A stretch of DNA of 40,881 nucleotides from a virus. The position numbers were made by a program, and so were the translations under genes. Position 1 is the stretch's first letter; the number at the start of each line of letters is the position of its first letter. The notes under the pieces are model-generated. The model did no database searches, was not told where the DNA came from, and saw only the letters and a program-made list of their open reading frames with translations. The stretch lies in the IMG/VR virus record IMGVR_UViG_3300042879_002539, positions 1 to 40,881 of that record. One strand, given 5' to 3'. Positions 8,021-31,276 of the stretch are shown here, in pieces.

Positions 8021-8037
8021 GGTTCTCCTCATTGTCT

Positions 8038-8052: not shown

Positions 8053-8074
8053 ACGGGCGATCTGACGACCGATC

Positions 8075-8110: not shown

Positions 8111-8157
8111 GGATGCCACCAAGAGAGAAAGGTCTCTGGTTCGGTCGTATGGCATCC
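8111..8157 (-). terminator. Second structured hairpin after the 77-aa gene
   Basis: GGATGCCA (8111-8118) pairs with TGGCATCC (8150-8157), and inside it AGAGA (8124-8128) pairs with TCTCT (8133-8137). It begins 6 bases after the stop of the gene at 8164-8397 and abuts the next hairpin, giving two stacked structures. Confidence 0.55.
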
Positions 8158-15687: not shown

Positions 15688-15723
15688 ACGACACCGCTTA
15701 TCAACACGGATAGACTCTCTATA
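15688..15723 (+). promoter_or_regulatory. Candidate promoter of the right arm, leaderless
   Basis: ACGACA (15688-15693) and TAGACT (15711-15716, fitting the actinobacterial TANNNT -10) are 17 bases apart. The expected start of RNA coincides with the ATG at 15723. No ribosome site precedes that ATG, so the transcript is probably leaderless. Confidence 0.5.
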
Positions 15724-16496
15724 TGCGGTATTACATCCAGCGACCTGCAAACTCATACGGCTCGGTTGACGTGCACGTACTGAGCGATAAGCGCACTACG
15801 GAAACGATTGACACGTGGGACGGACCAGAAGTAGCGGATGTTGCTGCTACTGGCAACGTGAGGGTAAGTTCACCTCGGGAAGAGCCGAACTTCAACACGG
15901 TGCAGCGTCCTGTGCTTAATGCACGGGGAGAGTTTGAGTACCAAGACAATGGTCTCGTCAAACGGGAAAGCGTGTACAGATCAACGAAGGAGTGGGGTAA
16001 CCCAACTGAACTGTTCACGCACCACTCACCAGTGGTGCAAGAGGCATTCGTCGATCCCTCGCTGCGCCATGCACTACCCACGATGGTCGGTATGGCTATG
16101 AATGCAATGGGAGCAGGCGGTGACACTCCTGTGGCGGCAAATGACCTATCCAAGTGGTCAAGTACCTTGTCTAGGAAGGCCGCTAAGCGTGGACTGACAA
16201 AGGGCCACCCAGAGAACGTGAACATGAGCGTTACGAACAGCATCGACATGTATCCAAGGCATGAGCGCATGTACCACACCAACGATGCTGGTGAGCGCAT
16301 TCCTACCTTCCAGGTAGACGGTGCTAAAGAGGCAACTCCAGAAGAGGTGTCGGCTGCTCGTTCTTGGGTAAAGAGCCGTGTGAAAGGCAAACGAGGAGAG
16401 CAATTTAAGGACGTTGAGGACGGTCTATCGGTTTCTCAGCGTGAATGGCAGGCACAACGTATCAACCCAGGCCCAGGTCAGGAGTCACTGTTCTAA
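15723..16496 (+). CDS. Unknown protein, paralogue of 16969-17730, ends in QESLF
   Basis: The 257-residue protein shares a central block with the protein at 16969-17730: ELFTH, DPxLRHxxPTMVG, and SSTLSRxAxxRGL (about residues 95-155). The paralogues probably have the same fold. Its last five residues, QESLF, resemble a bacterial sliding-clamp-binding pentapeptide. The start has no ribosome site but sits 6 bases after a -10-like hexamer. The function is unknown. It is the first gene of the right arm and so probably expressed early. Confidence 0.8.
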   Translation: MRYYIQRPANSYGSVDVHVLSDKRTTETIDTWDGPEVADVAATGNVRVSSPREEPNFNTVQRPVLNARGEFEYQDNGLVKRESVYRSTKEWGNPTELFTHHSPVVQEAFVDPSLRHALPTMVGMAMNAMGAGGDTPVAANDLSKWSSTLSRKAAKRGLTKGHPENVNMSVTNSIDMYPRHERMYHTNDAGERIPTFQVDGAKEATPEEVSAARSWVKSRVKGKRGEQFKDVEDGLSVSQREWQAQRINPGPGQESLF

Positions 16497-16969
16497 TGAC
16501 TCTTGGACCGCAATTTCAACCGTTTGGTGACATACGTGACGACGATCCAAATGTCCGCAAGTACACCCCTGAAGGAAGCAAACGGAGTTTTGAACTCCGC
16601 CATGAATACGGGTCAGTAGTCTCTCGTCAGATCGGGAAACCGGACGACATTCTTCCTGGTGGAAGGGCTGTGAAACGAGTTTCTGGAATACTTGGCACGT
16701 GGGGGGATAATGACAGTAGGGAAGTACTGCACGTTCAGGTGAACACAGGGTTTAGGGGAATGGGTATTGGTGCTGCCATGCTGTCGATGGCGCAAGAGAA
16801 GTACCCAAGCCTTTCCCACAGTACCCAATTGAGCGCAGAAGGGGCGCGGTTTGCCCACGCAAACCCACTTCCTGGTGATACAGAGAAGACGAAGAAGGCA
16901 CAAGCAAGGAAGTTGACTGCCGATGCTGCCACCACAATGCTCGGTGGGCCACGGAGAACGGGATTCTAA
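16496..16969 (+). CDS. GNAT-family acetyltransferase-like protein
   Basis: The 157-residue protein has VLHVQVNTGFRGMGIGAAML (about 78-96). RGMGIG at 87-92 is the acetyl-CoA pyrophosphate loop of GNAT enzymes, preceded by the usual beta strand. The C-terminal HSTQLSAEGARFAHAN fits the beta5-alpha4 end of the fold. It probably acetylates a small molecule or protein; the substrate is unknown. The start and stop each share one base with the neighbouring genes (TAATG), placing it between the two paralogues in one operon. Confidence 0.75.
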   Translation: MTLGPQFQPFGDIRDDDPNVRKYTPEGSKRSFELRHEYGSVVSRQIGKPDDILPGGRAVKRVSGILGTWGDNDSREVLHVQVNTGFRGMGIGAAMLSMAQEKYPSLSHSTQLSAEGARFAHANPLPGDTEKTKKAQARKLTADAATTMLGGPRRTGF

Positions 16970-17730
16970 TGGCTATTCGATACTTTAGAAACATAAAGGG
17001 CGGTGGTTACTCCCTCTTTAACGGCTCTTCTATTGAAGCAGTTTCTGACAAGCGCCAACCGGATGGATACCCCTACGCAAGAGTAACGCTTGAGCCATCA
17101 TTTGAGTCACCGAACTTTGAGCACAAGATCACGTCGCACACTCCTACGGAGACTCTTGTTGAGTCGATCACGAACCCGAACTTCAATCCAAAGAAGGAAC
17201 TCGTTACCTCTTCCGCTTACGGGTATATGAAGGGTAGTGAGGATGAACATCCCAGTGAATTGTTCACTCACGTGCCTCCAGTCATCGATGTTGCCTATTC
17301 TGACCCCAAACTACGTCACGTAATGCCAACAATGGTCGGAATTGCCATGCATGAACTCGGCGCACAGCACGACGTACCAATGGCGAGCGGAACTCTGTCC
17401 CCCTTCTCCTCTACGTTGTCACGTAATGCGGTAAGTAGAGGGCTTGCAGTGCCCAACTTCTCCAATAGAAACATGGAAACAGGGCAGGACACCTACTCGG
17501 AGGATGGAGAAGTGCAGAAATACGCTGCTCCTAAGCGGGAACACATGCCTGAAATGCGTAAAGAAACTACCGGACCACTGTGGGCTGACGAAAAAGTGCC
17601 TGAAGAGCGTGTCAACCAAGGCAGACAGTGGGTTCGTGACCGCATTTCTGCTTCACGTGGCATTTCTCAGCGGGATAAGCCACAAGTTAACCGTGGTGAC
17701 AGCCAATTTGAGCAATTAAAGTTGTTCTGA
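16969..17730 (+). CDS. Unknown protein, paralogue of 15723-16496, ends in QLKLF
   Basis: The 253-residue protein matches the first right-arm protein over its central block (SELFTH, DPKLRHVMPTMVG, FSSTLSRNAVSRGL). Its C-terminus EQLKLF fits the clamp-binding consensus QLxLF very well. The N-terminal region (RYFRNIKGGGYSLF) may be a small beta domain. It is translationally coupled to the GNAT gene. Binding to the host DNA polymerase clamp is inference from the peptide alone. Confidence 0.8.
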   Translation: MAIRYFRNIKGGGYSLFNGSSIEAVSDKRQPDGYPYARVTLEPSFESPNFEHKITSHTPTETLVESITNPNFNPKKELVTSSAYGYMKGSEDEHPSELFTHVPPVIDVAYSDPKLRHVMPTMVGIAMHELGAQHDVPMASGTLSPFSSTLSRNAVSRGLAVPNFSNRNMETGQDTYSEDGEVQKYAAPKREHMPEMRKETTGPLWADEKVPEERVNQGRQWVRDRISASRGISQRDKPQVNRGDSQFEQLKLF

Positions 17731-17894: not shown

Positions 17895-18536
17895 ATGATG
17901 AGTTCAACCTCTAAATCACACATGTCATCCGGTCAGTTCGCTGAACAACTTCCTATGTTCATGTCTGCGCGTGAGATCCAGTCCCAATTTGCCCCACTGT
18001 CTTACGACAAGGTCGATAAGTATGACAACGGCTGGCGAGAAGAGACAGACGACGAGTTGTGGGATCGCAAACTGGACGAATCTCAGTTGAGCAAGGCTGA
18101 CTATGAAAGTACGCACCACGGTCGGGAGTACTACCGTGTGCTCCAGTCTCAGATGAGCAAAATGCCAAGCAGCCAGTTCAATGTGAGTAGGCGAACCGGT
18201 GAAGGCACGTACACGTACCAAGACCGAAAAGAAGACGAGCGTGTAGCAGCAGCGGATGAGCACATCAACTCATACGAATCGTCGCTGTACCACCACCTAT
18301 CTACTGGTGGGGACATTCCTCCTGTGCACCTTGGTCACGACCCTCTAGAGGCACCTGGGTCAGGTAAGGGCAAGACCGTCCTTGGCGGGCACCACCGCAT
18401 TGCAGCACTGGCAGAGGCAGACCCAGATCGTCTGATCGCAGTCCTTCACACCGAAGGTACTGTTCCTCGGGATGCCGGTCACCCAGGTATCTTTGGTGGC
18501 CAGCGAAACCCGAAGAATCCGTACAAGTACACCTGA
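17895..18536 (+). CDS. ParB-like (GHHR) domain protein
   Basis: The 213-residue protein has EQLPMF near the N-terminus (residues 17-22), a clamp-binding-like peptide. A helical charged middle is followed by a C-terminal ParB/sulfiredoxin-like core with IPPVHL, then TVLGGHHRIAAL (about 160-171). The G-x-HR signature binds nucleotide phosphate or forms the ParB catalytic loop; no partner ParA is seen, so it is not a partition pair. ATGATG: the first ATG follows AAGGA by only 3 bases and the second (17898) may be used. Confidence 0.75.
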   Translation: MMSSTSKSHMSSGQFAEQLPMFMSAREIQSQFAPLSYDKVDKYDNGWREETDDELWDRKLDESQLSKADYESTHHGREYYRVLQSQMSKMPSSQFNVSRRTGEGTYTYQDRKEDERVAAADEHINSYESSLYHHLSTGGDIPPVHLGHDPLEAPGSGKGKTVLGGHHRIAALAEADPDRLIAVLHTEGTVPRDAGHPGIFGGQRNPKNPYKYT

Positions 18537-18810: not shown

Positions 18811-19563
18811 ATGAGAAAGCGCCAGTTCATCGATGTGTTCCACGCCAGTCGCTCAAGGACTCCCCCGCACCTGACGGAGCACCCTAGTGGCGACAGCATG
18901 TACTCGCCTACTCAGCAGTTCATTCTCCGCAACACAGATTTCCCTGAGGGCGAGTCAATGGTGTCGAAAGACACCTTTAGTGGCATGTATGGTGGAGGGT
19001 TATCCACCACAGCAGACTACGTATCATCTGGTTCTGATCGCGCAGAGTTCGCTGACAAGACGATCTTCACTGGAACACCGCACACAGTGGGCGCTATGAT
19101 ACAAGGAGAGCAGGGCACCGACGCCGAGGGAGGAAGGAACTACGTACACCACTACAGAGTGCCCACGTCTTCCATTTCTCCTGAAATCTACGCTGACGAT
19201 GACGCCTACAGAACGCCAACCCTTTCATCAGGGGCCACGCCTACTCTCTGGGAAAGCATCCCACTTCGGCGTAGCCAAGTACACAAGATGCAAAAAGTGG
19301 TTCAAATGCGAAACAACGTGGAGGGGCCGGGAGAGATTAGCCACGTTATTCCAAAAGAACACATGGGCAAGTTGGGTATTCAATTCGTAGGAACCAGTGC
19401 CACCGCCGATTGGAACAAGCGCTACGGGTCACAGTCCACAGAACCGTCATCTGACAACCCAGTGAGCGGTACTGGAGATGTCAGAAAAAGTGTTACCGTT
19501 TCTGACAACCAGGAAGAGCCTCGTAGAAAAGAACTGCCTGGGCAACTTCAGTTAGACATCTAA
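18811..19563 (+). CDS. Putative ADP-ribosyltransferase-like protein, ends in QLQLDI
   Basis: In this 250-residue protein, FIDVFHAS (6-13), then GGGLSTTADYVSSGSDRA (about 63-80) and a YVHHYRVP strand (about 111-118) recall the H...Y/S-T...E layout of ADP-ribosyltransferase folds. This is a pattern match without a confirmed catalytic glutamate. The C-terminus QLQLDI resembles a clamp-binding peptide, as in neighbours. The start ATG lies 6 bases after TACTGT and may be leaderless. If active it could modify host proteins early in infection (inference). Confidence 0.55.
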   Translation: MRKRQFIDVFHASRSRTPPHLTEHPSGDSMYSPTQQFILRNTDFPEGESMVSKDTFSGMYGGGLSTTADYVSSGSDRAEFADKTIFTGTPHTVGAMIQGEQGTDAEGGRNYVHHYRVPTSSISPEIYADDDAYRTPTLSSGATPTLWESIPLRRSQVHKMQKVVQMRNNVEGPGEISHVIPKEHMGKLGIQFVGTSATADWNKRYGSQSTEPSSDNPVSGTGDVRKSVTVSDNQEEPRRKELPGQLQLDI

Positions 19564-19864: not shown

Positions 19865-20353
19865 GTGGAAGAGTACGACTGGGAAAGCATTGCCCATCTA
19901 AGTCAACAGTTTCACCCATTCCACAGACCTGCTCGTCTGTACGGAGCAGGTGAGGCCGGGATTGATCGCATCTTTGGGCCTGCTCCTACAGCACCCACTC
20001 CGTGGCAGAGCGCCGGGAAGTCTAAGAAGTACGGACTACTACACCCAGACGAGAAGGATGCGATTGCCTCTGAACTTAGCCGTCAGCCGCCAAGTTTGGT
20101 TGAGTTCGACCCTCGTCCACTACTAGCGTCTCAGCCGAGCGTGGTACAGCATCATCTTCGGCACTACATGGGGCGAAACTACGATCTAACGGGACAGACC
20201 GCTGCTGACCAAGGTAACGTTGGCAACAGGTTCCCAGTGATCCTGCACCGCCCGTCTCGTAACCAGAACATCATTCTGTCTGGTCATCACCGAGCGACGG
20301 CTGCACTGTTGAAAGGTGTTCCACTCCGTGCATTACGCGTTGAAGGCCAGTAG
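19865..20353 (+). CDS. ParB-like (GHHR) domain protein
   Basis: The 162-residue protein has a ParB/sulfiredoxin-like C-terminal core: FPVILHRPSRNQNIILSGHHRATAAL, with SGHHRA at about 140-145. The N-terminal part is proline-rich and poorly conserved. It is a second GHHR protein 1.3 kb after the first; the two differ outside the core. The GTG start has AGGAAGGAAC upstream. Phage proteins of this group act as DNA-binding proteins, nucleases or NTPases; no assignment is possible here. Confidence 0.7.
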   Translation: MEEYDWESIAHLSQQFHPFHRPARLYGAGEAGIDRIFGPAPTAPTPWQSAGKSKKYGLLHPDEKDAIASELSRQPPSLVEFDPRPLLASQPSVVQHHLRHYMGRNYDLTGQTAADQGNVGNRFPVILHRPSRNQNIILSGHHRATAALLKGVPLRALRVEGQ

Positions 20354-20375
20354 CCCATTTGAGTATGAGAAGACG

Positions 20376-20621
20376 ATGATCTCTGTTACACCACTCCTCC
20401 ACATCGGTGATACATGCGGCGAACTGCCGATTGCTGTAGAGACCGACAGTTACAGTGAAGCCGCAGCATTCATGCTGCTTGGACTCACCACGCTGGTGCC
20501 CACACCAGAGGTAGCAATTGACACGCTAGGCGTGTTCATGTCCCGAGAACGAGCGGAAGAACGGGTACGTTCTATCATTGAGTTCGATTTCCAGGGCTTT
20601 CCTTCACCCACTGCACCCTGA
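20376..20621 (+). CDS. Small unknown protein
   Basis: The 81-residue protein is alpha/beta (MISVTPLLHIGDT, a hydrophobic helix FMLLGLTTL, then an acidic end). The ATG at 20376 has only a weak GAGAAG upstream. A GTG at 20316 would overlap the ParB-like gene by 38 bases. No family is recognised. Confidence 0.6.
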   Translation: MISVTPLLHIGDTCGELPIAVETDSYSEAAAFMLLGLTTLVPTPEVAIDTLGVFMSRERAEERVRSIIEFDFQGFPSPTAP

Positions 20622-20629
20622 CGGCTGCC

Positions 20630-21031
20630 ATGCAGATCAAGGGTTCGGATATTCGTTGGCTTCGCCTTGCCATTCTTCAGGCTGAGCAGGCACCACACGC
20701 ACAATGGCGTGTTGGCGCAGTGCTCGTCAGAGGAGGAAGCGTCCTGTCGTCGGGGTTTAATCGCTACAGGAATGACCCATCTCTGGTGGAACTGGACGGG
20801 GTCTCCTATCACGCTGAAGAGGCCGCTATTCGTCGGGCAGGAGATCCAGACGGAGCGACTCTGTACGTTGCGCGCATCAAGAGAGATGGCGATCTAGGCA
20901 TGGCAAAGCCTTGTCAAAAGTGCCAGCAGATTATCCTTGACACGGGCGTGCACACTGTTGTGTGGTCAACCTCTGAAGGACTCTCTAAGGAGAGAACGCC
21001 TGCGCTCTGTGCAGACCGTCTTGCCGTGTGA
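20630..21031 (+). CDS. Cytidine/deoxycytidylate deaminase-like zinc enzyme
   Basis: The 133-residue protein has the deaminase zinc site: HAE at 61-63 (H61 ligand, E63 catalytic) and PCQKC at 94-98 (C95, C98 ligands). The family hydrolyses the amino group of a cytosine or related base, nucleoside or nucleotide. It is shorter than typical dCMP deaminases. It may supply dUMP/dTTP for phage DNA, or act on a modified base or nucleotide connected with the next genes. No strong ribosome site precedes the ATG. Confidence 0.85.
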   Translation: MQIKGSDIRWLRLAILQAEQAPHAQWRVGAVLVRGGSVLSSGFNRYRNDPSLVELDGVSYHAEEAAIRRAGDPDGATLYVARIKRDGDLGMAKPCQKCQQIILDTGVHTVVWSTSEGLSKERTPALCADRLAV

Positions 21032-21087
21032 TAATTTGCTGGTGTAGAGCCAAGCGCTTCAACTCTGCCGTCGAACAAGGTGAACAC

Positions 21088-21996
21088 ATGAAGGTACTGA
21101 TCACGGGAAGTAGTGGGTTCGTTGGAAGTCACTTCCGTAAGAAGTTAGACGACGGAACAAACGACCTGCTGTGTCTAGACGTAAAAGACGGAGTAGTCCT
21201 AAAGGAGTTCCTGAACACGCAGGATTGCCGTGAGTACTTTAGGGCAAACAACACGCAGTTTGATCTAGTGATCCACTGCGCCGCTGTAGTAGGCGGAAGA
21301 ACGATGATTGAGAACAGTCCGTTCTTGCTAGCAGCAGAGGATCTCAGCATCGACGCTGAGATGTGGCGATGGGCCGAGCGCACTAAGCCGAAGTACACTG
21401 TGTTCTTCTCCTCATCCGCCGCCTACCCCATTGCTTTTCAGCGAAGTGAATACAACATCTCTCTGAGAGAGGATCACATCGATCTAGACGCTGTGCGCAA
21501 CCCAGACTTCACATATGGATGGGTTAAGTTGACCGGTGAAATGATGGCCAGGGAGTACAGCAACCTTGGGCTAAAGGTGTTGGTTCTTCGACCTTTCAGT
21601 GGATACGGAGAAACACAGGACATGTGCTACCCGTTCCCTTCGTTTGCCTGGCGGGCAGCAGTTAAAGAGTCACCGTTTGCCATCTGGGGTGATGGCACTC
21701 AGGTTCGTGACTGGGTGCATATTGACGACATCGTTGATGCAGTTCTGACAATGCACCAGCAGGATGTTGCTGGCTTAGCGGTCAATATCTCTACCGGAGT
21801 AGGAACTTCCTTCAACGAGTTAGCAAGTATGATGATGAAAGAGGCCGGTTACTCTGCTCCCCTTCATCATCTGCTTGACGCACCAAAGGGCGTCATGCAC
21901 CGCGTTGGGTGCCCTGATCGCCTTAACTCTTTCTATACGCCAAGAGTTACCCTTGAGGAGGGCATTAGGCGATGCATCAAACACTTCCTACACTAG
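21088..21996 (+). CDS. NAD-dependent sugar-nucleotide epimerase/dehydratase
   Basis: The 302-residue short-chain dehydrogenase-like enzyme has a TGSSGFVG Rossmann loop (6-13), FFSSSAAYP (about 106-114) and catalytic Y143-x3-K147. The C-terminal half has RVxW-type substrate features (WGDGTQVRDWVHIDD). This matches GDP-fucose/UDP-glucose-type epimerases. AAGGTGAACAC precedes the ATG. It makes an activated sugar for the glycosyltransferases that follow. Confidence 0.9.
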   Translation: MKVLITGSSGFVGSHFRKKLDDGTNDLLCLDVKDGVVLKEFLNTQDCREYFRANNTQFDLVIHCAAVVGGRTMIENSPFLLAAEDLSIDAEMWRWAERTKPKYTVFFSSSAAYPIAFQRSEYNISLREDHIDLDAVRNPDFTYGWVKLTGEMMAREYSNLGLKVLVLRPFSGYGETQDMCYPFPSFAWRAAVKESPFAIWGDGTQVRDWVHIDDIVDAVLTMHQQDVAGLAVNISTGVGTSFNELASMMMKEAGYSAPLHHLLDAPKGVMHRVGCPDRLNSFYTPRVTLEEGIRRCIKHFLH

Positions 21997-22673
21997 GAGT
22001 TCTAGTTCCATCAAGAGGCCGTCCCGGCAACGTTGGCCCTTTGATTGAGAGTTTCCATACTCGTAAAAACGAGGGCACTGAACTGCTCATCATCATTGAT
22101 GACGACGATGACACATATGAGCAGTACCACTGGGAGTGGGATCTTCACAGAGGATCACTCGTGGGTGCTCTTCTTACGACAGAACGCCTTCGTCTTGGTG
22201 GAACGCTGAACAAGTTCGGCCCAGAGATGGCTAATAGGTACGACATTGTCGGCTTTATGGGCGACGATCATCGTCCACGTACTGAAGGATGGGATGTGGA
22301 GGTAGCGAAAGCGTGCGCTAACACTCCCAATGCAGTAGTTTACGGAAACGACCTGTTGCAGGGACAAGCACTAGCGACTGCTGTGTTCATGGACTCTGCC
22401 ATTATTAAGGCTCTTGGATACATGGTGTTCCCAGGCGGCGTACACCTATTCTTCGACAACTTCTGGATGGACATTGGCCGTGGCCTTGGTACTTTGACGT
22501 ACCTTAGCGACGTAATCATCGAACACGTTCATCCCTCCGCTGGCAAGGTGGAGTGGGATCATGGGTACAATGAGGTTAACTCAAGCGATACCTGGATTAT
22601 GGACGAAAACACATACAAAGAGTATGTGGCGTATCAACTCTCAAATGATGTGCAGAGAGTACGGTCTTACTGA
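21972..22673 (+). CDS. GT-A type glycosyltransferase-like protein
   Basis: The 233-residue protein starts with the typical strand-loop LGVLVPSRGRPGN (8-20). An acidic IIIDDDDDTY (40-49) and FMGDDHRP (95-102) follow, the latter a probable metal-binding DxD-type site. These are features of GT2-like GT-A enzymes using nucleotide sugars. It overlaps the epimerase gene by 25 bases with GGAGGGC upstream, so expression is coupled. The acceptor is unknown. Confidence 0.8.
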   Translation: MHQTLPTLGVLVPSRGRPGNVGPLIESFHTRKNEGTELLIIIDDDDDTYEQYHWEWDLHRGSLVGALLTTERLRLGGTLNKFGPEMANRYDIVGFMGDDHRPRTEGWDVEVAKACANTPNAVVYGNDLLQGQALATAVFMDSAIIKALGYMVFPGGVHLFFDNFWMDIGRGLGTLTYLSDVIIEHVHPSAGKVEWDHGYNEVNSSDTWIMDENTYKEYVAYQLSNDVQRVRSY

Positions 22674-23227
22674 TGATTATCAGACTAAGACCCGACTACT
22701 CAGAGTCAGAACTCCAAGAAATCTACGCTAGGCCCAACGATTACACGAACTGGGACTATCACGTACATAGAGTCAATTTGACCATTTCCTTGGGCCTTCA
22801 GTTCTTCCGCAAGAACGAGGGTGTGGTAGTTGACCTTTCGGCAGGTGCCAGACCAGACATTGCGTACGCTTTCAGCGATTCACCTGTACTAGGTGATTAC
22901 TCTTACCGTGATGGGTACCACTACCACGGGAAGATTGAAGACGCAATTAAGAACGTTGGGTCACCATTAGTTGATCTATTCATCCTCTCTGAGACCATTG
23001 AGCACGTGTCTGAGCCTGTTCGTCTTTTAGAAGAGATTAGGGCTAGGTCAAAGAAACTAATCTTGTCAACTCCTGATGGAGAGATAGACTCCAGCAAGCA
23101 TGAGCATTACTGGGGCTGGGATGTTGAGGGGATGAGAGAGATCCTTCAATCCTCGGGGTGGCGTCCGCTTATAGTCACTACTATGGATATGAGCGGCATT
23201 AAGACACAAATATGGGTGTGTGAGTGA
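22673..23227 (+). CDS. Class I SAM-dependent methyltransferase-like protein
   Basis: The 184-residue protein has a VVVDLSAGAR motif I (51-60) and the acidic motif SETIEHVSEP (106-115), as in sugar and small-molecule methyltransferases. Motif I has SAGAR instead of the usual GxGxG, so cofactor binding should be checked. It overlaps the previous and next genes by single stop/start bases. It probably methylates the sugar or peptide produced by this block (inference). Confidence 0.75.
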   Translation: MIIRLRPDYSESELQEIYARPNDYTNWDYHVHRVNLTISLGLQFFRKNEGVVVDLSAGARPDIAYAFSDSPVLGDYSYRDGYHYHGKIEDAIKNVGSPLVDLFILSETIEHVSEPVRLLEEIRARSKKLILSTPDGEIDSSKHEHYWGWDVEGMREILQSSGWRPLIVTTMDMSGIKTQIWVCE

Positions 23228-23823
23228 TGGAGACCAGACTCTTTCCAGAAGGAACGATTCCTGAATACACAACAGATGCGTGGTACGCAGAGAGGGAAAG
23301 CGCTCCGCACGTTGATCAGGATGCCCATCGGCCTCGGCTAGACGTAGCCGCACAGTTCGTGGTTCAGGCGTACGAACCGGGAATGATTGTTGTCGATCTC
23401 GGTTCTGGTGACGGAGGACTACTATGGTTGATCTCTTCTCAGGTTCCACCCCATCTACGCTGGGGCTACGACCTTCAGCAAAGTAACGTCGATGCTGCCG
23501 CTGCTCGCGGTCAGAACGTCATGTATGGAAACGTATTAACCGACGATATTTCATACGGGGACATATGCGTTACCACTGAGATGCTTGAACACCTCATTGA
23601 CCCGCACGCGTACGTACGGCACCTGTCTTCAAAGGTGAAGTACCTAGTAGCAAGTTCTCCTGCATTTGAGACCGCTGACGCCCACTATGAGTACCACACG
23701 TGGGCGTGGGATAAAGACGGATACGCTGAGATGCTCGTAAACAATGGCTTTAGCGTTGTTCGACATGACATTGTCGGACCATTTCAAGTAGTACTGGCAA
23801 TCAGCACTCATCTTGACGTGTAG
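23227..23823 (+). CDS. Class I SAM-dependent methyltransferase
   Basis: The 198-residue protein has the canonical motif I VVDLGSGDGG (55-64) and TEMLEHLIDP (117-126). The C-terminus YAEMLVNNGFSVVRHDIVG is the usual end of the fold. The ATG overlaps the previous stop (TGATG); a GTG one codon earlier is possible. It is a second methyltransferase in tandem with the first and of the same general type, so successive methylations are possible. Confidence 0.85.
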   Translation: METRLFPEGTIPEYTTDAWYAERESAPHVDQDAHRPRLDVAAQFVVQAYEPGMIVVDLGSGDGGLLWLISSQVPPHLRWGYDLQQSNVDAAAARGQNVMYGNVLTDDISYGDICVTTEMLEHLIDPHAYVRHLSSKVKYLVASSPAFETADAHYEYHTWAWDKDGYAEMLVNNGFSVVRHDIVGPFQVVLAISTHLDV

Positions 23824-23825
23824 AA

Positions 23826-24494
23826 ATGTCAACCCCTGTATTCGTAATTGTTCGTGATCGTCTTGAACAACTCAAGAAAACGATTACTGGCCTGGAGAAG
23901 GCGCAGGGAATTGACCTTGTCCTTGTAGACAACGACTCTACGTACGAGCCGACTGTTGAGTACCTACGCCAATCGCAGCACCAAGTGATCTTTACGGGCA
24001 GTAACCACGGACATCACAGTCCGTGGATTCTTGGCTTACTCCCAGAGATCGGCCCGTTTGGGCTTACTGACCCAGATGTATGTCCAGTAGATGAGTGCCC
24101 CACAGACTGGCCTGAGAAGATGCTAGGCGTGCTGCATCGACATGAGCGTCTAATCAAGACTGGGTTCTCTCTGCGGATCGACAACATCCCAGACCACTAC
24201 CTCTATAAAGACCACGTGATCCATCATGAAACCCAGTTCTGGGTAGGTGGTCTTCTAGAAGAGTGGGAAGACGGAACTAAGGTACATGACTCCGCTGTTG
24301 ACACTACTATGGCGTTCTACCGCAACAGAAACGCCGGTTGGGACATCTGGCCATCAGCACGACTAGGTTGGCCCTATACCGCTGAGCACCTTGCTTGGTA
24401 TGTAGATTCAGCGAATCTTCTAGAAGACGAGATCTACTACCGGCAACACTGCGATAAGAACGTCGCTTCTTGGAAGTACAACGAGGAACACTGA
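23826..24494 (+). CDS. GT2-like glycosyltransferase
   Basis: The 222-residue protein starts with MSTPVFVIVRDRLEQL, then VLVDNDSTYEP (32-42), the nucleotide-binding face of GT-A enzymes. TDPDVCP (81-87) probably supplies the metal-binding acidic pair. A C-terminal aromatic region is likely to bind the acceptor. It lies 3 bases after the methyltransferase gene and overlaps the next by TGATG. Confidence 0.8.
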   Translation: MSTPVFVIVRDRLEQLKKTITGLEKAQGIDLVLVDNDSTYEPTVEYLRQSQHQVIFTGSNHGHHSPWILGLLPEIGPFGLTDPDVCPVDECPTDWPEKMLGVLHRHERLIKTGFSLRIDNIPDHYLYKDHVIHHETQFWVGGLLEEWEDGTKVHDSAVDTTMAFYRNRNAGWDIWPSARLGWPYTAEHLAWYVDSANLLEDEIYYRQHCDKNVASWKYNEEH

Positions 24495-25114
24495 TGGAAC
24501 TGGCACACTTTTACCACGTCTACGCACTTGGGCAGTGGGAGCATGTGGTTGATCATCACATTCGTGCCCTCAAACGAAGCCCGGTAGGTGCAATCCCTAC
24601 GTACGTAGGAGTAGTAGGCGACGCTGGCCCGGTTCTTCGCCGTCTAGCGGATAACGACATTCACGCTAACCTCGTTGCCAACAGTGACGAGGGGTGGGAG
24701 CAACTTACCCTCAATGCTTTGTACGAGTGGTCTGTTGCCAGAGAAGGGCGAGAATCGTACGTGTTGTACACCCACACCAAAGGGGCTGGGTGCGATTACC
24801 CGTTACAGGCAACGTGGCGCAACGAGATGGAATACTGGAACGTAGTCAACGCTGACAAGGCACTTGAAGTTCTGGATTCTGGAGCCTCTACAGCAGGTGT
24901 ACACTATGTGAGTGGTCTTCCAGGGCAAGACCCCTACTTTGGGGGCAACTACTGGTGGGCAAGGTCATCGTGTCTTTCCGTGATCGGCCCGCCTGAGATG
25001 AACACTAGGTATGATGCCGAAGTGTGGATTGGGCGAGTTACTCGTCTCGTTCCCGGTTCATTCGCAGTCGATCTAAGCCACACACCAATCGGCCACGGCG
25101 CACCAGAGGTGTAG
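24494..25114 (+). CDS. Glycosyltransferase-like protein with THTKG motif
   Basis: The 206-residue protein begins MELAHFYHVYALGQWEHVVDHHI and carries YVLYTHTKGAGCDY (89-102). This H-x-KG pattern is seen in glycosyltransferase-like proteins of surface-glycan clusters. The final third has YFGGNYWWARSS and VDLSHTPIGHG. Its start overlaps the previous stop. It is the last gene of the glycan block. The assignment rests on pattern and context. Confidence 0.65.
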   Translation: MELAHFYHVYALGQWEHVVDHHIRALKRSPVGAIPTYVGVVGDAGPVLRRLADNDIHANLVANSDEGWEQLTLNALYEWSVAREGRESYVLYTHTKGAGCDYPLQATWRNEMEYWNVVNADKALEVLDSGASTAGVHYVSGLPGQDPYFGGNYWWARSSCLSVIGPPEMNTRYDAEVWIGRVTRLVPGSFAVDLSHTPIGHGAPEV

Positions 25115-25130
25115 TGCTAGTAGGTGCGTA

Positions 25131-25152
25131 ATTGTATCGTTGGCGCTACAAT
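25131..25152 (+). promoter_or_regulatory. Inverted repeat ATTGTA-N10-TACAAT containing a -10
   Basis: TACAAT (25147-25152) is a near-perfect -10 ending 7 bases before the ATG at 25160. It forms an inverted repeat with ATTGTA (25131-25136). No ribosome site is present. This is probably a leaderless promoter with an operator-like arrangement. Confidence 0.5.
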
Positions 25153-25159
25153 TGACGAC

Positions 25160-25318
25160 ATGGTCATCACTTACACTGTGTCAACCCAGTTCATTGGTGA
25201 TGCTCGTGCTGTTGCTATGCGTCGTGCCACGGCAGAAGGATGGGGAAGAGCGACAGTGATGAATGTCGTGCGCCTTGACCTAAATACGTACGAAGTGACT
25301 CTAGTGGTGAGTAAGTAG
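25160..25318 (+). CDS. Small protein, 52 aa, before the lysis genes
   Basis: The 52-residue protein has strand-helix-strand features: MVITYTVSTQFIGDARAVAM, then VVRLDLNTYEVTLVVSK. The ATG follows TACAAT by 7 bases, consistent with a leaderless transcript. An upstream GTG would need to read through that promoter. No family is recognised. Confidence 0.65.
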   Translation: MVITYTVSTQFIGDARAVAMRRATAEGWGRATVMNVVRLDLNTYEVTLVVSK

Positions 25319-25366
25319 TCGCTGCTAATATTTCCGACAACTACGGTATTCGGACAAGGCGACACT

Positions 25367-26176
25367 ATGACTGTAAACACGCAGTACTTCACTAACTGGC
25401 AAGACGGTCGTCAACCCAACTCAACGCTGTTTGGCTCCACTTCTCCCGCTCTCCGAGCGGTACGAGAATACCTACTGAAGAGATACGGCGGGGTAGATCT
25501 TGGCGGGTATGGAACGCGCAAGGTTCGTGGAGATGAGGAGTGGTCTTCGCACGCCTTTGGCTCTGCTATTGACTGGCGCTGGTGTAGCGCAGATGCCGAC
25601 GTAGTGTCGGCAGCACAGCAACGGAAGATTCTTGATGATCAGATTCTGCCATTCCTCATCAACAACTCTCTTGAACTTGGCATTCAAGCAATTCACGACT
25701 ACTACGGAGCAGTGCCTGGAACGGGTCGGCTCTGGCGATCAACCCGCACTAATGGTGTAAGGGGCTGGGTTAACCAGGCCGATTCTCCCACTGGCATGGG
25801 GCAACTCTGGGCTAAATGGCTACACATTGAGGTGTACGAGTCTGCCTGGTCTAACGGCGAACCAGTGGAAAACAAGTTGACTAATACTTCACCTCCTCCA
25901 GTTCCTGTCCCAGCGGTTGTTGTGCCTGCTCCAACTCTGAAGATCGGCAGCAAGGGACCAGAGGTAGTGAAGTTGCAGCAGATCCTGGTCTTCTGGTCAT
26001 GGGCAAAGAAGCCATTTAAGATCGATGGCGAATTCGGTGCAATCTCAGAGATTGCTGTTAAGCAGATGCAGCGGGCGCTGAACGTCCCCATTGACGGCAA
26101 CTACGGCCCCAAGACGGCAGCCGCTCTACGTAAGTTCCTTGTCAACATGGCCTCGGTTGCCGCTAGTAAGAGTTGA
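25367..26176 (+). CDS. lysA: Endolysin: M15-type peptidase plus peptidoglycan-binding domain
   Basis: The 269-residue lysin's N-terminal catalytic domain has SSHAFGSAIDW (60-70; H62 and D69 as zinc ligands) and WLHIEV (151-156; E155? and H153), typical of VanY/M15 D,D- or L,D-carboxypeptidases. A Pro/Val linker (176-190) leads to a PG_binding_1 repeat (192-258; GSKGPEVVKLQ and DGNYGPKTAAAL). It cleaves cross-linked peptides of the host wall at the end of infection. AAGGCGAC lies before the ATG. The two following membrane-protein genes complete the lysis cassette. Confidence 0.92.
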   Translation: MTVNTQYFTNWQDGRQPNSTLFGSTSPALRAVREYLLKRYGGVDLGGYGTRKVRGDEEWSSHAFGSAIDWRWCSADADVVSAAQQRKILDDQILPFLINNSLELGIQAIHDYYGAVPGTGRLWRSTRTNGVRGWVNQADSPTGMGQLWAKWLHIEVYESAWSNGEPVENKLTNTSPPPVPVPAVVVPAPTLKIGSKGPEVVKLQQILVFWSWAKKPFKIDGEFGAISEIAVKQMQRALNVPIDGNYGPKTAAALRKFLVNMASVAASKS

Positions 26177-26185
26177 GGAGTACCA

Positions 26186-26449
26186 GTGTCGGCTTGGTCT
26201 CTTGTATTCGTGCCTATTGTCGTAGCGCTTATTGGTGGGCCTCTTATGTGGGCACTGAAGCGTCTTGACGACGACAATACTCGTCAGCACAACGAGGGTC
26301 AAAAAGAAGCGGAACGAAGGCACCTTGAGGCGCTTAACGCTCTTAGCAAGGTCGATACTAAGGTCGACAAAGTAGAAGCAACCGTCAGCGAACTCGCTGA
26401 CAAACACCATGACCACATCGTGTGGCACTTTACAAACAAAAAGGACTGA
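26186..26449 (+). CDS. Holin-like protein, one membrane span and coiled coil
   Basis: The 87-residue protein has a membrane span at about 4-24 (WSLVFVPIVVALIGGPLMWAL). A charged helical tail with a K-V-D heptad pattern (VDTKVDKVEATVSELADKH) follows. The GTG start has TTGAGGAG upstream. Its position just after the endolysin makes it a holin or holin partner, because many actinophage lysis cassettes have such one-span coiled-coil proteins (family knowledge). Confidence 0.75.
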   Translation: MSAWSLVFVPIVVALIGGPLMWALKRLDDDNTRQHNEGQKEAERRHLEALNALSKVDTKVDKVEATVSELADKHHDHIVWHFTNKKD

Positions 26450-26639: not shown

Positions 26640-26741
26640 TCGGAAGTAGGGCGTACTAGGAACAACTACAGTTGTGGGTCAAACCAGATTGTTGCACTAC
26701 GCCACTGTCGTTCCTTGCATACATACGGTATAGTACGACTA
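26640..26741 (+). promoter_or_regulatory. Structured gap with TATAGT promoter before the tail genes
   Basis: GGCGTA (26650-26655) and TACGCC (26698-26703) could close a stem that also contains ACAAC-TACA-GTTGT (26662-26675). TATAGT (26729-26734) lies 7 bases before the ATG at 26742, with no ribosome site, so a leaderless mRNA is likely. No gene is visible in the gap. Confidence 0.5.
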
Positions 26742-27485
26742 ATGATCTCTCAGGCTAAGTACAAACTAACTAGAGGGCTTTCCTGGGAGCGTCTTGTCCT
26801 TGTTAAGGACAGGACTACTCGTCGCCGTATCTATCCTACTGAGGCGTGGGGCGCAGTCCGTACCGGTACAAACATGACGGTACCTCTAAACGTGAACATC
26901 ACCAGTGAGGGCGGTCTGATGCTTTACCTCACGGATCAGGAAACGGCGGCGTTACCGTTAGGGGATCTAGCGTTTGATGTGGTAGCGGTCATCAGCCGAC
27001 GTTCCGCCGCAGCAAACGGTGGGTTTGCCACTACTACTACTCCGGTGGTGGCTGGCACTATTTCCGTGTCAGACCTAGACCTCGTGTCCGACCCCACACT
27101 TGGAGCGATTATGAATCTTCCCATCAAGTTTGCAAAGGGTGAGGACTACTACACCTCGTTTGTCTGGCAAGACGGCGATGGGGACACCCTTACCGTTACC
27201 GACGCCTATTTGCAGGCAAAGGACGCTACTGGGGCGACGGTTATCGACATTCGTTGGTTCGCCACGCCTCCAAACGAGGTTGCTATTGCCGCCTTACCAG
27301 GCTCACAACGAGGCTACCTCACCTGGGTCAACGGCGACAGTTTGGAACTTCATATCTCCGACCTCAACTCAGTAACAGCAGGGTCGTATGAATATGACCT
27401 TTTCGTCCAAGGTGCGGTCAACCAGTGGACAAGGCTCGTTCGTGGCTATGTTACTATTGACCCAAGCGTTTCTGTTCGCCCTTAA
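26742..27485 (+). CDS. Virion structural protein, probable minor tail or baseplate protein
   Basis: The 247-residue beta-rich protein has two similar strand blocks (about residues 35-85 and 125-180) and a Ser/Thr/Val-rich segment between them. The final block LPIKFAKGEDYYTSFVWQDGDGDTLTV recalls N-terminal domains of tail/baseplate proteins. The position after the lysis genes and before fibres fits. The start lacks a ribosome site; the ATG is 7 bases after TATAGT. Confidence 0.65.
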   Translation: MISQAKYKLTRGLSWERLVLVKDRTTRRRIYPTEAWGAVRTGTNMTVPLNVNITSEGGLMLYLTDQETAALPLGDLAFDVVAVISRRSAAANGGFATTTTPVVAGTISVSDLDLVSDPTLGAIMNLPIKFAKGEDYYTSFVWQDGDGDTLTVTDAYLQAKDATGATVIDIRWFATPPNEVAIAALPGSQRGYLTWVNGDSLELHISDLNSVTAGSYEYDLFVQGAVNQWTRLVRGYVTIDPSVSVRP

Positions 27486-27502
27486 TCTGTTAGGAGACTC
27501 AA

Positions 27503-27940
27503 ATGTCCAAAGGCAATACCTGGGAAAACGACCTACTGCTCTTAGTGTTCAACAACACCAATGCGGCCAACATTGGCGATGCAACCGGTCTGCGCGGGTC
27601 AACAACAGTGGGGTCTTTGTTTCTGTCACTGCACACCGCCGACCCCGGTGAAGCAGGCGATCAGACCACCAGTGAGGCGACGTACACGGGGTACGCCCGT
27701 GTAGCCGTTGCTCGCACTACAGGCGGGTTCACCGTGTCCGCAAACGCAGTCACTCTCGTTGCGAATACGGACTTCGGTGCCTGTACCGCTGGCACCAACA
27801 CGATCACCCACTTCGCTATCGGTACTGCTTCGACTGGTACGGGCAAGGTGCTCTACAAGGGCGCTCTCTCACCGTCCATTTCAGTAACCTCGGGTGTAAC
27901 CCCTCGCATCCTTTCTGGCACGATTGTTACTGAGGACTGA
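27503..27940 (+). CDS. Tail fibre/baseplate-type virion protein
   Basis: The 145-residue protein has SLFLSLHTADPGEAGDQTTSE and YTGYARVAVARTTGGFT, a pattern I know from many siphovirus virion proteins annotated as tail or fibre proteins. The rest is beta-rich and Gly/Thr-rich. AGGAGACTCAA precedes the ATG; the stop overlaps the next start (TGATG). The role in the particle is inferred from family and context. Confidence 0.75.
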   Translation: MSKGNTWENDLLLLVFNNTNAANIGDATGLRGSTTVGSLFLSLHTADPGEAGDQTTSEATYTGYARVAVARTTGGFTVSANAVTLVANTDFGACTAGTNTITHFAIGTASTGTGKVLYKGALSPSISVTSGVTPRILSGTIVTED

Positions 27941-28398
27941 TGTCTGACAACAGCACTCTCCCGGCAACTGGTGATGTGATCGCTACCGATGACATTGGTG
28001 GCGTGAATTACCAGCGCATCAAGTTGATCCACGGCAGTGATGGAGTCAACGACGGCGACGTGTCGCTCAACAACCCGTACCCGGTCACGCTCACGCAGGG
28101 CGAAGTCGTGGAGGCGCTGGAAGCCATGCGAATGGCAGTGCAGTCACTCAGCCGTTCCATTGGTCAGTCGATGCCTGATGTGGCTGGCCGTCTCCGTGTC
28201 GTGGTGGATGCCATCACTGGCTCTCTGACGTTGGCGACGATCACGACGGTCGGCACGGTGACGACGGTCAGCACGGTGACGACGGTCAGCACGATGACGA
28301 ACCAGACGCAGGTCGGTGGCAACCCGGCCTTTGAGCAGATCCCCGCCCTGATGCGCCTCGGTGCCGACTCCCTCCGCAGAAACGTGAGCGTGACCTGA
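27940..28398 (+). CDS. Virion protein with TTVxTVTTV repeat
   Basis: In this 152-residue protein, residues 1-45 (LPATGDVIATDDIGGVNYQR) are a conserved phage structural signature. A central helix follows. Then comes a threonine/valine repeat (about residues 102-128; TTVxTVTTV) encoded by a DNA repeat at about 28240-28300. The repeat could form a fibre or trimeric stalk. It is translationally coupled on both sides. Family recognition is by pattern only. Confidence 0.75.
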   Translation: MSDNSTLPATGDVIATDDIGGVNYQRIKLIHGSDGVNDGDVSLNNPYPVTLTQGEVVEALEAMRMAVQSLSRSIGQSMPDVAGRLRVVVDAITGSLTLATITTVGTVTTVSTVTTVSTMTNQTQVGGNPAFEQIPALMRLGADSLRRNVSVT

Positions 28399-29837
28399 TG
28401 CCTACTACCAACGGCAACCGCAAGATTCTCGATTTAAAGCGGTGGGAGTTCTGCACGCCCGCACCCCTCGCAACCTCGGCGGGTGCATTCATTGCGTCGT
28501 CTCGCCACCACCGACAGCAGCAGTTGTATGTGGCGAGTGCAACGGCGCAGTACCTCTACAACCCTCTTGAAGATGGCTGGACGCAGATTCCCTCGGGAGC
28601 GCTGGCGGGCACGTTTGGCGCTGGTGCGTGCGGCACTGCTACGGCGATTGGCCCATCCGGTACCGCCACGGGCGGAACAACCTCAACGATCAACACGAAC
28701 CTCACCCTGGCACGTGACCTGCGTGGGTACTCCATCCACATCACTGGCGGACCGAACGCTGGCGCGACACTGGCGATCAGCAGCAACACAGTCGGCGCGA
28801 ACGGCGTCGTCACGGTGCCGACCCAGGCGTCGGCGTTCACTGCGTCGACCACGTTCCGACTGCTTACGCCCCGCTGGTACGTGCTCAACGCCGTAACGGC
28901 GTCGGGCACCACTACGGCGAACCTGTTCAAGTTTTACGATTTCGCCACCAACACCTGGGCCTCGGCCGAGACCGGTGCGACGGACGGCATCGCCCCGGCC
29001 GCAGTGATCGGCACCGACAGCAAGTTGATCTGCACCCCGTCATGGCAAGGCTCCGGTTACAAGTCGTTCGCTACTGGTACGGCGACGAGCGCCACGGCTA
29101 CGACGCTGGTGAACTCGGCAAAGACGTGGACCCCCAGCCAGTGGATCAACTCCCAGATCCGCATCGTGTCTGGCACTGGAGCCGGTCAGATCCGCACCAT
29201 CACGGCCAATGACGCCACCTCTGTGACCGTGGCGACGTGGACGACGACGCCAGATGCGACGAGCGTCTACAGCATCGAAGGCAATGATGACTTCATCTAC
29301 TACATGGGCAGCAACGCTGTCACGCTGTTCCGCTACAGCATCACGGCGGGCACCTGGACGACGATCACGCCAGGTGTTGCCCGAGGCGCTGCCCCCGGTG
29401 CTGGCTTGTCGGGGCACTGGGTCTGGGAAGCGCCCGACGCCGCTTGGAATAACGAGTCGGCCATCCTGAACGGTCGGTACATCTACTCCTTCCGTGGTGC
29501 CGCTTCGGCGGTGGTTGACCGCTATGACATTGCTGCGAACACCTGGAACAACGCTCTGACGTACGCTCCGGCGACGGAGACCTTCACGACCGGCTCCAAG
29601 TACGTCTACAGGGACGATTCTCTCTACATTCAGAAAGAAGCCACCGGTCGCTGGTTCCAGCACAACTTCGTCACCAGCGAGCAGAACGGGTGGACGACGA
29701 TGACCTACACCCAGGGTGCTGCGGTGCTCGGCGACACGGCGTTCGATGTGCACTACACCGACGGTGCCACCGAGATCGACTACGTCTACATGGTGCTGAA
29801 CACATCTACAGTGATGCTTCGCTGCATGGTGATCTGA
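28398..29837 (+). CDS. Large beta-propeller (Kelch-like) tail protein
   Basis: The 479-residue protein starts with a basic segment and then repeats of about 45-50 residues with aromatic-acid patterns (YxxxDFATNTWASA, YDIAANTWNNAL, FRYSITAGTWTTI). The -NTW- turns are typical of Kelch propeller blades. The probable role is receptor binding as part of a tail fibre. G+C is high, as in the surrounding fibre genes. The ATG overlaps the previous stop. Confidence 0.75.
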   Translation: MPTTNGNRKILDLKRWEFCTPAPLATSAGAFIASSRHHRQQQLYVASATAQYLYNPLEDGWTQIPSGALAGTFGAGACGTATAIGPSGTATGGTTSTINTNLTLARDLRGYSIHITGGPNAGATLAISSNTVGANGVVTVPTQASAFTASTTFRLLTPRWYVLNAVTASGTTTANLFKFYDFATNTWASAETGATDGIAPAAVIGTDSKLICTPSWQGSGYKSFATGTATSATATTLVNSAKTWTPSQWINSQIRIVSGTGAGQIRTITANDATSVTVATWTTTPDATSVYSIEGNDDFIYYMGSNAVTLFRYSITAGTWTTITPGVARGAAPGAGLSGHWVWEAPDAAWNNESAILNGRYIYSFRGAASAVVDRYDIAANTWNNALTYAPATETFTTGSKYVYRDDSLYIQKEATGRWFQHNFVTSEQNGWTTMTYTQGAAVLGDTAFDVHYTDGATEIDYVYMVLNTSTVMLRCMVI

Positions 29838-29838
29838 G

Positions 29839-30000
29839 ATGAACCATGACGACATTCTTCGGCAGGCTCGCACTTGGGTCGCTCGTCAGACGATGCTTCG
29901 TGCTGAAGCAGAGCGGCTTGGGGATGCTGATGCCATCTCCCGTGCCGATGCCGAGATTGCAGAAACAGAACAACTGATTGCCGAACTAGAGAGCCTGTGA
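29839..30000 (+). CDS. Small coiled-coil protein, 53 aa
   Basis: A 53-residue frame (MNHDDILRQARTWVARQ, then ARADAEIAETEQLIAEL-type heptads) starts one base after the previous stop. GGTGATCTGAG lies before the ATG, but it is a weak ribosome site. A small helical protein in the fibre operon could be a chaperone or coil partner (inference). Confidence 0.65.
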   Translation: MNHDDILRQARTWVARQTMLRAEAERLGDADAISRADAEIAETEQLIAELESL

Positions 30001-30011
30001 GGAGGTAGGTC

Positions 30012-30986
30012 ATGCCCAGAATCAGTGATCTGACAACCCTCACCGGGGCCAATCTGGCCGGGACCGACAAGATCGAAGTTCTTGATGTCTCCGATCCGAC
30101 GCTGGCTGCCAGCGGCACCAACAAGCAGACGACACTGGCCGACCTGGCCGTAGCCGTCAACCCGACGCCTGACATTCAGTCGTTCACGGCGAATGGCACC
30201 TGGACGAAGCCGACCGGTGCAGCGTTGAGGTGGGCGCAGGTCACGGTGGTGAGCGGCGCTGGCGGTGGTGGTTCTGGCCGTCGCGGTGCAGCGGGCACGG
30301 TGCGTTGTGGTGGCCAGTCTGGCGGCAGTGGCGGCGTATCGGTAGCGACGTTTCGCATGGCTGACCTGCCCGGCACGGTGTCGGTCACAATCGGTGCTGG
30401 TGGTGCTGGTGGGTTGGCGGTCACGACTGACGATACGAACGGCAACAATGGCGGCAATGGTGGATCGTCGACGTTCGGATCACTCTTGGCGACAAACATC
30501 AGCGGTGGTGGCGGTGGTGGACTGAACAACGGCTCAGCCGGGACGGGGTTCGGTGGCTCTGGGAACGTGTTTACCCCGCTTGGGGTGGTTTCGCCGTCAG
30601 CAACCGGCGGCGCTGGCGGTGCTGCACAGAACCGGTTTGCGACATCCACTGGTGGCGCTGGTGGCGGTTTGACCGCAGCGAACGTTTCATCGGCTGGTGG
30701 CTTGGGCGGCTCTACGTGCACGGTTCAGGCCAACCCAGCCGCAGGTACTGCTGATGGCGGTGCTGGTGGTGCAGGCGTGAACTCAACGATTCAGCCAGGC
30801 GCTTTCGGCGGCTCGTCGGGTGGCGGCGGTGGTGCGGGCAACGCAGCCGGAACTGTCGCAGGTGGTGCAGGCGGTGCCGGTGGCTACGGCTCCAGCGGTG
30901 GCGGGGGTGGCGCATCGACCAACGGTGCGAACAGTGGCGCAGGTGGCGCAGGAGGCGGAGGTTTCGTCATGGTGGTGTGTTTCTGA
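30012..30986 (+). CDS. Glycine-rich tail fibre protein
   Basis: The 324-residue protein has an N-terminal attachment-type region (ISDLTTLTGANLAGTDKIEVLDVSDP), then FTANGTWTKPTGA. A long glycine/alanine-rich region (about 85-318) with many GGAGGxG stretches follows, as in phage adhesin tips and Ig-like or GRP fibres. GAGGAGGTAGGTC precedes the ATG. It is probably part of the host-recognition fibre. Composition bias makes detailed domain calls unsafe. Confidence 0.8.
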   Translation: MPRISDLTTLTGANLAGTDKIEVLDVSDPTLAASGTNKQTTLADLAVAVNPTPDIQSFTANGTWTKPTGAALRWAQVTVVSGAGGGGSGRRGAAGTVRCGGQSGGSGGVSVATFRMADLPGTVSVTIGAGGAGGLAVTTDDTNGNNGGNGGSSTFGSLLATNISGGGGGGLNNGSAGTGFGGSGNVFTPLGVVSPSATGGAGGAAQNRFATSTGGAGGGLTAANVSSAGGLGGSTCTVQANPAAGTADGGAGGAGVNSTIQPGAFGGSSGGGGGAGNAAGTVAGGAGGAGGYGSSGGGGGASTNGANSGAGGAGGGGFVMVVCF

Positions 30987-31273
30987 TGGCCGTTCAACGC
31001 TGGGTCGTCCTCGCTGCCGATGGCGTGCCGCAGAACGTCGTCATGTGGGACGCCGACGACGCACCCGACTGGGAGCCACCGGAGGGCTGCACTGTCCGTC
31101 TTGATGATGGCACCCCAATTGAGTTGAGCGACGCTCCACAACAGGCCGTTCAGCCAACTGCCGATGACAAACTCGCTGCCGCCAGCAGCGCTCTGGCCGC
31201 TATCGACTCAGCAACAACCGTCAATAACATCGTTGCTATCCTCACGGAGTTGAAGAACGCACTGGAGCAGTGA
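30986..31273 (+). CDS. Small tail-fibre-associated protein
   Basis: The 95-residue protein has RWVVLAADGVPQNVVMWDADD, then PPEGCTVRLDDG, a pattern recurring in small proteins encoded next to phage fibres. The C-terminal half is helical. The ATG overlaps the stop of the glycine-rich fibre (TGATG). It is probably a fibre accessory or assembly protein. Confidence 0.7.
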   Translation: MAVQRWVVLAADGVPQNVVMWDADDAPDWEPPEGCTVRLDDGTPIELSDAPQQAVQPTADDKLAAASSALAAIDSATTVNNIVAILTELKNALEQ

Positions 31274-31276
31274 TCT

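Follow-up and report, generated by a model that had tools for sequence, protein, structure and literature searches.

Glycosylation of the virion has been described in few experimental systems of tailed phages, most of them mycobacteriophages (PMC12363180, PMC11600133; here and below the literature is cited from excerpts). In Corndog, gp35-38 comprise an O-methyltransferase and three glycosyltransferases encoded between portal and protease; these proteins were found in infected cells, not in virions, and the authors suggested that methyl and glycan groups are added to the capsid (PMC4351075). The enzymes of cluster O phages are stated to modify both the capsid and the tail tube (PMC11600133, citing Freeman 2023), and in a survey of mycobacteriophages Che8 gp110 and Corndog gp38 are described as indispensable for glycosylation of the capsid (PMC12363180, citing Freeman 2023). 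The same inference of virion glycosylation has been drawn from a glycosyltransferase and a methyltransferase in a Rhodococcus phage (PMC13313380). In this study, a block of six genes was analyzed in IMGVR_UViG_3300042879_002539, a linear IMG/VR virus record of 40,881 nucleotides (hereafter the window). The block is probably a phage-borne glycan cassette of the late region, whose products would glycosylate virion proteins in the cytoplasm with an O-methylated sugar.

All six genes lie on the plus strand between 21088 and 25114, 3' of a deaminase gene. They encode, in order, a nucleotide-sugar epimerase/dehydratase-family enzyme (21088–21996), the glycosyltransferase GT1 (21972–22673), the methyltransferase-like protein MT1 (22673–23227), the methyltransferase MT2 (23224–23823), the probable glycosyltransferase GT2 (23826–24494) and GT3 (24494–25114). 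From the epimerase through GT3 the genes either overlap or lie 2 nt apart, and the gap between the deaminase and the ATG of the epimerase is 56 nt. Pfam, PHROGs and NCBIfam provided the family evidence, and folds were taken from AlphaFold models. The initial annotation had described six glycan-type genes after a cytidine-deaminase-like gene, and this description holds: the open reading frames are real and packed, and homologues of GT1, methyltransferase and epimerase co-occur in other phages.

The GT1, methyltransferase and epimerase genes form a recurrent cassette. Single-protein scans of IMG/VR with GT1, GT2 and MT1 returned near-identical contigs only. Two-sequence profiles of MT1 and of the epimerase opened a wider family, with 25 methyltransferase loci and 80 epimerase loci, the latter being the best 80 of 466 confirmed relatives. 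After the window's own copies had been removed, 78 epimerase and 23 methyltransferase loci were compared (L151 stands in both lists, and L142 and L176 come from a single contig). A GT1 homologue was present in 67 of the 78 epimerase loci, always on the same strand, while the methyltransferase loci contained the epimerase in all 23 cases and GT1 in four. Neither GT2 nor GT3 was found in any locus of the two sets. With regard to redundancy, clustering of 101 phage loci by their epimerases at 70% identity, with the two near-identical copies of the window among them, gives nine clusters, and the 50 loci with the most frequent layout, GT1-X-epimerase, form one of these. Among 20 loci viewed, the cassette most often follows tail-fibre genes (recognized by eye) and a CHAP lysin; in freshwater-type loci the order is tail fibre, CHAP lysin, GT1, X and epimerase. 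In L182 and L190 an MT2-type gene stands directly 5' of the epimerase. Gene X itself (L175:4745-5470 and relatives; about 241 residues, 52 loci) stands between GT1 and the epimerase; neither Pfam nor PHROGs gave a match for it, and by eye it looks GT-A-like, with a DADAR motif.

The cassette is also carried by bacterial genomes. A scan with the GT1 profile gave 24 loci, of which 23 are in named Actinobacteria (Streptomyces, Sphaerisporangium, Nonomuraea, Actinomadura and Spongiactinospora) and one is in a lake metagenome-assembled genome labelled proteobacterium. The epimerase accompanies GT1 in all 24 loci, in 23 of them on the same strand; a window-type methyltransferase is present in eight, and in others its position is occupied by another kind of methyltransferase (as in L245, 44.5 bits). 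In two Spongiactinospora prophages the capsid gene is immediately followed by the cassette, in the order portal (phrog_12), head protease (phrog_80), major capsid (PF05065, 102.8 bits), glycosyltransferase (phrog_34859), GT1, methyltransferase, epimerase, conserved phage protein and LamG-like gene, where the portal is taken from L261 and the protease from L256, and the LamG-like fibre was labelled by eye. The Nonomuraea locus L242 encodes a Laminin_G_3 protein two genes 5' of GT1, with one small gene between. Upstream genes were family-searched in 8 of the 24 bacterial loci: L242, L256 and L261 gave head or LamG matches, L244 and L249 matched phage families of unknown function, and those of L241, L258 and L262 had no informative family match.

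Because of this gene position, a virion protein is the likely acceptor. The block of the window adjoins a lysin gene and a tail-fibre module, and its homologue in the prophages directly follows the capsid gene. On the plus strand behind GT3 are an endolysin with a peptidoglycan-binding domain (25367–26176; 44 bits to PF01471, with matches to several endolysin PHROGs) and a tail-fibre/adhesin-type module (26715–34090; phrog_1084, PF23140 with 60 bits, phrog_240 and phrog_863), whose proteins are possible acceptors. This module includes a Gp80-like fibre (27503–27940), a kelch-like protein (28398–29837, kelch below cut-off), a Gly-rich protein (30012–30986, Gly_rich_2 below cut-off) and a 937-residue protein (31277–34090) with no informative match. 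We propose a pathway in which the epimerase would turn a host nucleotide sugar into an unusual one, GT1 would act in the cytoplasm and attach the first or core sugar to the virion protein, GT2 and GT3 may extend or branch the glycan, and MT1 and MT2 would cap it by O-methylation. Most likely, the glycan would be placed on a fibre, tail or capsid protein, before the particle is assembled or while this happens. The sugar, the order of the steps and the late expression are likewise proposed. The earlier suggestion that sugars, probably O-methylated, are attached to virion proteins thus gains support, since tail-fibre, lysis or head genes repeatedly neighbour the cassette, which in two prophages comes immediately after the capsid gene. 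A search of the window proteins for Ser/Thr-rich acceptors found no 60-residue stretch above 0.38 Ser+Thr, and a promoter and terminator scan of 20000–26300 was uninformative (2 promoter-like sites against 4.6 expected).

The epimerase is the first gene of the cassette proper. It has 302 residues from the ATG at 21088 (a longer open reading frame starts with GTG at 21028), belongs to the short-chain dehydrogenase/reductase (SDR) type, and matches PF01370 with 122 bits (cut-off 20.9) and the nucleotide-sugar epimerase family phrog_540 with 163 bits; identity to the 78 non-self phage loci is about 50%. The SSS...YxxxK signature is conserved, so that the SDR Tyr-Lys pair is kept. GDP-fucose synthase and GDP-mannose 3,5-epimerase (GME) are the top matches, with GME the best in the PDB, and both were rejected as its identity: the acid/base Cys and Lys of GME (Cys145 and Lys217) are replaced by Ala111 and Pro182, and these two residues are invariant in 10 of 10 aligned relatives. 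Since the GME pair is absent and the SDR pair is kept, our guess from these residues is a C4-epimerase or a 4-reductase.

GT1 (233 residues) has no Pfam match and reaches 192 bits with the glycosyltransferase family phrog_14945. Its AlphaFold model (predicted local distance difference test, pLDDT, 86.7; Foldseek E 1e-9) gives VIA Z values of 18.4 to PcManGT, 17.8 to ppGalNAc-T (T2/T10) and 17.6 to WrtF, with 207–218 residues aligned to PcManGT and ppGalNAc-T. The model therefore strongly supports a GT-A fold spanning most of the protein, and the invariant Asp-Asp-His (DDH) motif resembles the DxH of polypeptide GalNAc-transferases. GT3 (206 residues, HTKG motif) was read from the ATG at 24494, a longer open reading frame with a TTG start beginning at 24470, and searches and model used 24497–25111, with the first Met omitted. 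It matches nothing in Pfam, PHROGs or NCBIfam. Its model (pLDDT 74.6) has VIA Z of about 10 to GT-A enzymes and a best Foldseek E of 1.8e-3, none being at or below 0.001, which moderately supports a GT-A fold, and in L127:5914-7575 a GT3-type domain is naturally fused to a GT-B glycosyltransferase (PF00534, 48.9 bits). GT2 (222 residues) has a DPD motif but no PDB sequence match, and no homologue was found for it in phages, nor in IMG/VR apart from near-identical contigs. Several tandem glycosyltransferase genes are thus present, GT1 by family and fold, GT3 by fold and fusion, and GT2 weakly.

Between these transferases, the methyltransferases are paralogues (BLASTP E 4e-10), and a single family profile matches them at 218 and 193 bits. 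MT2 (199 residues) has an intact motif I, DLGSGDG, and passes the cut-off of PF13489 (Methyltransf_23; 30.5 bits against 27), whereas MT1 (184 residues) scores 16.2 bits against the same cut-off. Both presumably act on a sugar oxygen. In the initial count of two methyltransferases and three glycosyltransferase-like proteins, the weakly supported parts are GT2 and the activity of MT1.

The phage to which the block belongs is a large myophage, of which the window is a fragment, its genome being incomplete in the data analyzed. The terminase (38469–40034) has 48% identity with those of Streptomyces phages LuckySocke and BRock, its nearest relatives (genomes 112–116 kb). A near-identical contig, G001, continues beyond the terminase with genes whose order and sizes fit the LuckySocke portal, scaffold, capsid and tail sheath (names resting on synteny and eye), and therefore the window stops before the head genes. 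A scan of viral contigs for sequence beyond the left end gave two distant relatives, which were not included in the comparisons. A terminase scan returned 45 loci, 41 after removal of those near-identical to the window, and the epimerase and a window-type methyltransferase were each present in three of the 41, many of which are short fragments. G026, a relative of 98 kb, has an epimerase (48% identity) that adjoins a methyltransferase (35% identity to MT1) behind a GT-B-like gene and a second unnamed gene, just 5' of the terminase. In other relatives the same position holds a GT-B gene with a PhyH dioxygenase and a methyltransferase, a GT-B gene with an MptE-like protein, a GT-B gene alone, or nothing, and this varied content marks an accessory glycan locus. 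The PhyH-type dioxygenase between GT-B glycosyltransferase and methyltransferase (L063:9258-10025 in G013, 61 bits; G028:11393-12157) could introduce a hydroxyl group into a sugar or into the side chain of a protein. In the related phages L072 (G026), L063 (G013), L096 (G025), L141 and L140, the GT-B/GT-A/methyltransferase/epimerase cassette has as its neighbour a gene for a long mucin-like protein rich in Thr; this protein has a signal-peptide-like N-terminus by eye and is a possible glycan acceptor.

Such variation would also fit genes that the phage had recently taken up from host metabolism or surface-polysaccharide synthesis and that had no specific function in the virion. The epimerase is absent from 38 of the 41 relatives in the DNA analyzed, and the local G+C content is 0.50–0.53, whereas other parts of the window reach 0.66. 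However, most relatives of GT1 are in phage or prophage-like loci, and the set of three genes is found again and again in phages that are only distantly related; recent acquisition without a virion role is therefore very improbable.

Phage glycosyltransferases frequently act on DNA. The initial annotation had allowed for sugars on DNA bases, the neighbouring deaminase leaving nucleotide modification open. In such a scheme the cassette would glycosylate phage DNA bases, for example hydroxymethyl-pyrimidines, and shield the genome from host nucleases, the deaminase feeding the modified-nucleotide pathway. The deaminase (20630–21031, plus strand) is of the dCMP/cytidine family, with 57.5 bits to the zinc-binding domain PF00383 (cut-off 25) and 79 bits to the dCMP deaminase family phrog_174, and it does adjoin the block. 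Genome protection has been suggested for the glycosyltransferases of cultured freshwater Nanopelagicales phages (PMC10202952), and one PHROG matched by GT1 is named for a DNA methyltransferase. But no cassette locus contains the deaminase (0/78 epimerase, 0/23 methyltransferase and 0/24 bacterial GT1 loci), its family occurs only in the window and G001 among 19 records searched, and in Streptomyces phages its relatives lie about 90 kb away from those of GT1. On co-occurrence it was rejected as a component of the system, and it is probably a separate nucleotide-metabolism gene, unrelated to the cassette. Of three families searched, PF00303 (thymidylate-synthase-family hydroxymethylase), PF02511 (ThyX) and PF00145 (C5-methylase), none was found in 15 records, among which the window genome is incomplete. 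In addition, the methyltransferases match Methyltransf_23 rather than PF00145, and the homologous cassette of the prophages is located in the head operon. Taken together, a role on DNA is improbable, and neither DNA-base modification nor a part for the deaminase is supported.

The freshwater actinophage study also proposed superinfection exclusion for the glycosyltransferases of its cultured phages (PMC10202952). The cassette could in this sense alter host cell-surface glycans during infection, by superinfection exclusion or receptor masking, and soluble GT-A enzymes could use lipid-linked precursors for it. Against this, the block proteins have no membrane-type segment (19-residue hydropathy maximum at most 1.48), the family search of the block gave no flippase-type match, the cassette stands among structural and lysis genes, and its late location would leave little time for the surface to change. 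Modification of the host surface is hence unlikely.

Several observations weigh against virion glycosylation by the block. The GT1 gene was in none of the 41 terminase relatives outside near-identical contigs, in the DNA analyzed, and the block is therefore accessory. The capsid gene lies about 21 kb beyond the block, as judged from the order and size of the G001 genes, and the head-operon position is seen in only one prophage lineage (two species). Among the enzymes, the S-adenosylmethionine motif of MT1 is degenerate (DLSAGARP), the assignment of GT2 is weak (PF00535, 15.9 bits against a cut-off of 23.3), and GT1 also matches a PHROG labelled 'DNA methyltransferase' (phrog_2675). The polyphosphate-kinase matches of profile A3 (PDB sequences, E 5e-4) were taken as chance, since the residues misfit the GT-A model. 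Finally, no clear homology was detected between GT1 and Che8 gp108-110 or Krili gp33-35: the best profile score was 10 bits (Che8 gp108), scores to Che8 gp110 and Krili gp35 were negative, and blastp of the window transferases against Che8 and Krili gave E above 0.2.

With virion glycosylation as the preferred reading, a further idea can be put forward, which is tentative and perhaps does not hold. The GT1-(MT)-epimerase set may be a mobile, self-sufficient phage protein-glycosylation module, consisting of a donor step, a transferase with a ppGalNAc-T-like fold and a methyl cap, which has moved between unrelated phages and been set beside the virion gene that it serves. The cassette is frequent among environmental phages, which are never exposed to the immunity of an animal. 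On this view escape from antibodies would not be the reason why O-methylated glycans of the virion evolved; their function would be another, for example protection against proteases in the surroundings or adjustment of receptor binding.

Elsewhere in the window, other features were recorded. A 250-residue protein (18811–19563) resembles by eye an ADP-ribosyltransferase-type fold (FHASR ... GGGLSTTADY) and has no match in Pfam or PHROGs. Two proteins (17895–18536 and 19865–20353) share a similar C-terminal GGHHR/SGHHR motif, ParB-like by eye, without a family match. A pair of paralogues recognized by eye (15723–16496 and 16969–17730; common MPTMVG ... SSTLSR stretch) flanks a weak GNAT-like gene (16445–16969, 15.9 bits). 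On the minus strand, 4780–8155 contains an AAA_5/CobS-like ATPase (phrog_249, labelled porphyrin biosynthesis) beside a 700-residue protein, and distant relatives of both are close together in G040 and G041.

No description of a GT1-MT-epimerase cassette was found in the titles and abstracts viewed, and its absence from print is not claimed. Among described systems, the freshwater Nanopelagicales phages E7 and F5 are likewise aquatic actinophages with phage-borne glycosyltransferases and WhiB, although their authors propose genome protection or superinfection exclusion (PMC10202952). The Streptomyces phage Tomas encodes a glycosyltransferase pair, gp39/gp40, of which gp39 is 44–45% identical to GT1; unlike in the window, the pair is followed by a nucleotidyltransferase, and no epimerase or methyltransferase is annotated within 6 kb. 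The Streptomyces phage EGole has a relative of GT1 as well. Che8 (cluster F) has three tandem glycosyltransferases, gp108-gp110, but the features annotated in the 9.5 kb viewed include neither an epimerase nor a methyltransferase. In Corndog and Krili (cluster O), tandem glycosyltransferases stand beside an O-methyltransferase among virion genes; in the window, MT1 and MT2 are the methyltransferases beside the glycosyltransferases. The set of an O-methyltransferase and three glycosyltransferases is also visible in Krili gp32-35, and in two prophages a cassette homologous to that of the window follows the capsid gene. In contrast, the window block includes an epimerase of its own, lysis and tail-fibre genes follow on its 3' side, and GT1, GT2, GT3, MT1 and MT2 show no clear sequence homology to Krili gp32-35. 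An apparently non-homologous set with a conserved sugar-donor enzyme, in about 100 environmental phage contigs and in prophage-like loci of Actinobacteria, would suggest that many phages coat their particles with modified sugars and that this evolved on more than one occasion, and the prophage copies behind the capsid gene offer a direct, culturable test system. The window enzymes work like a Che8/Corndog-type system without belonging to it.

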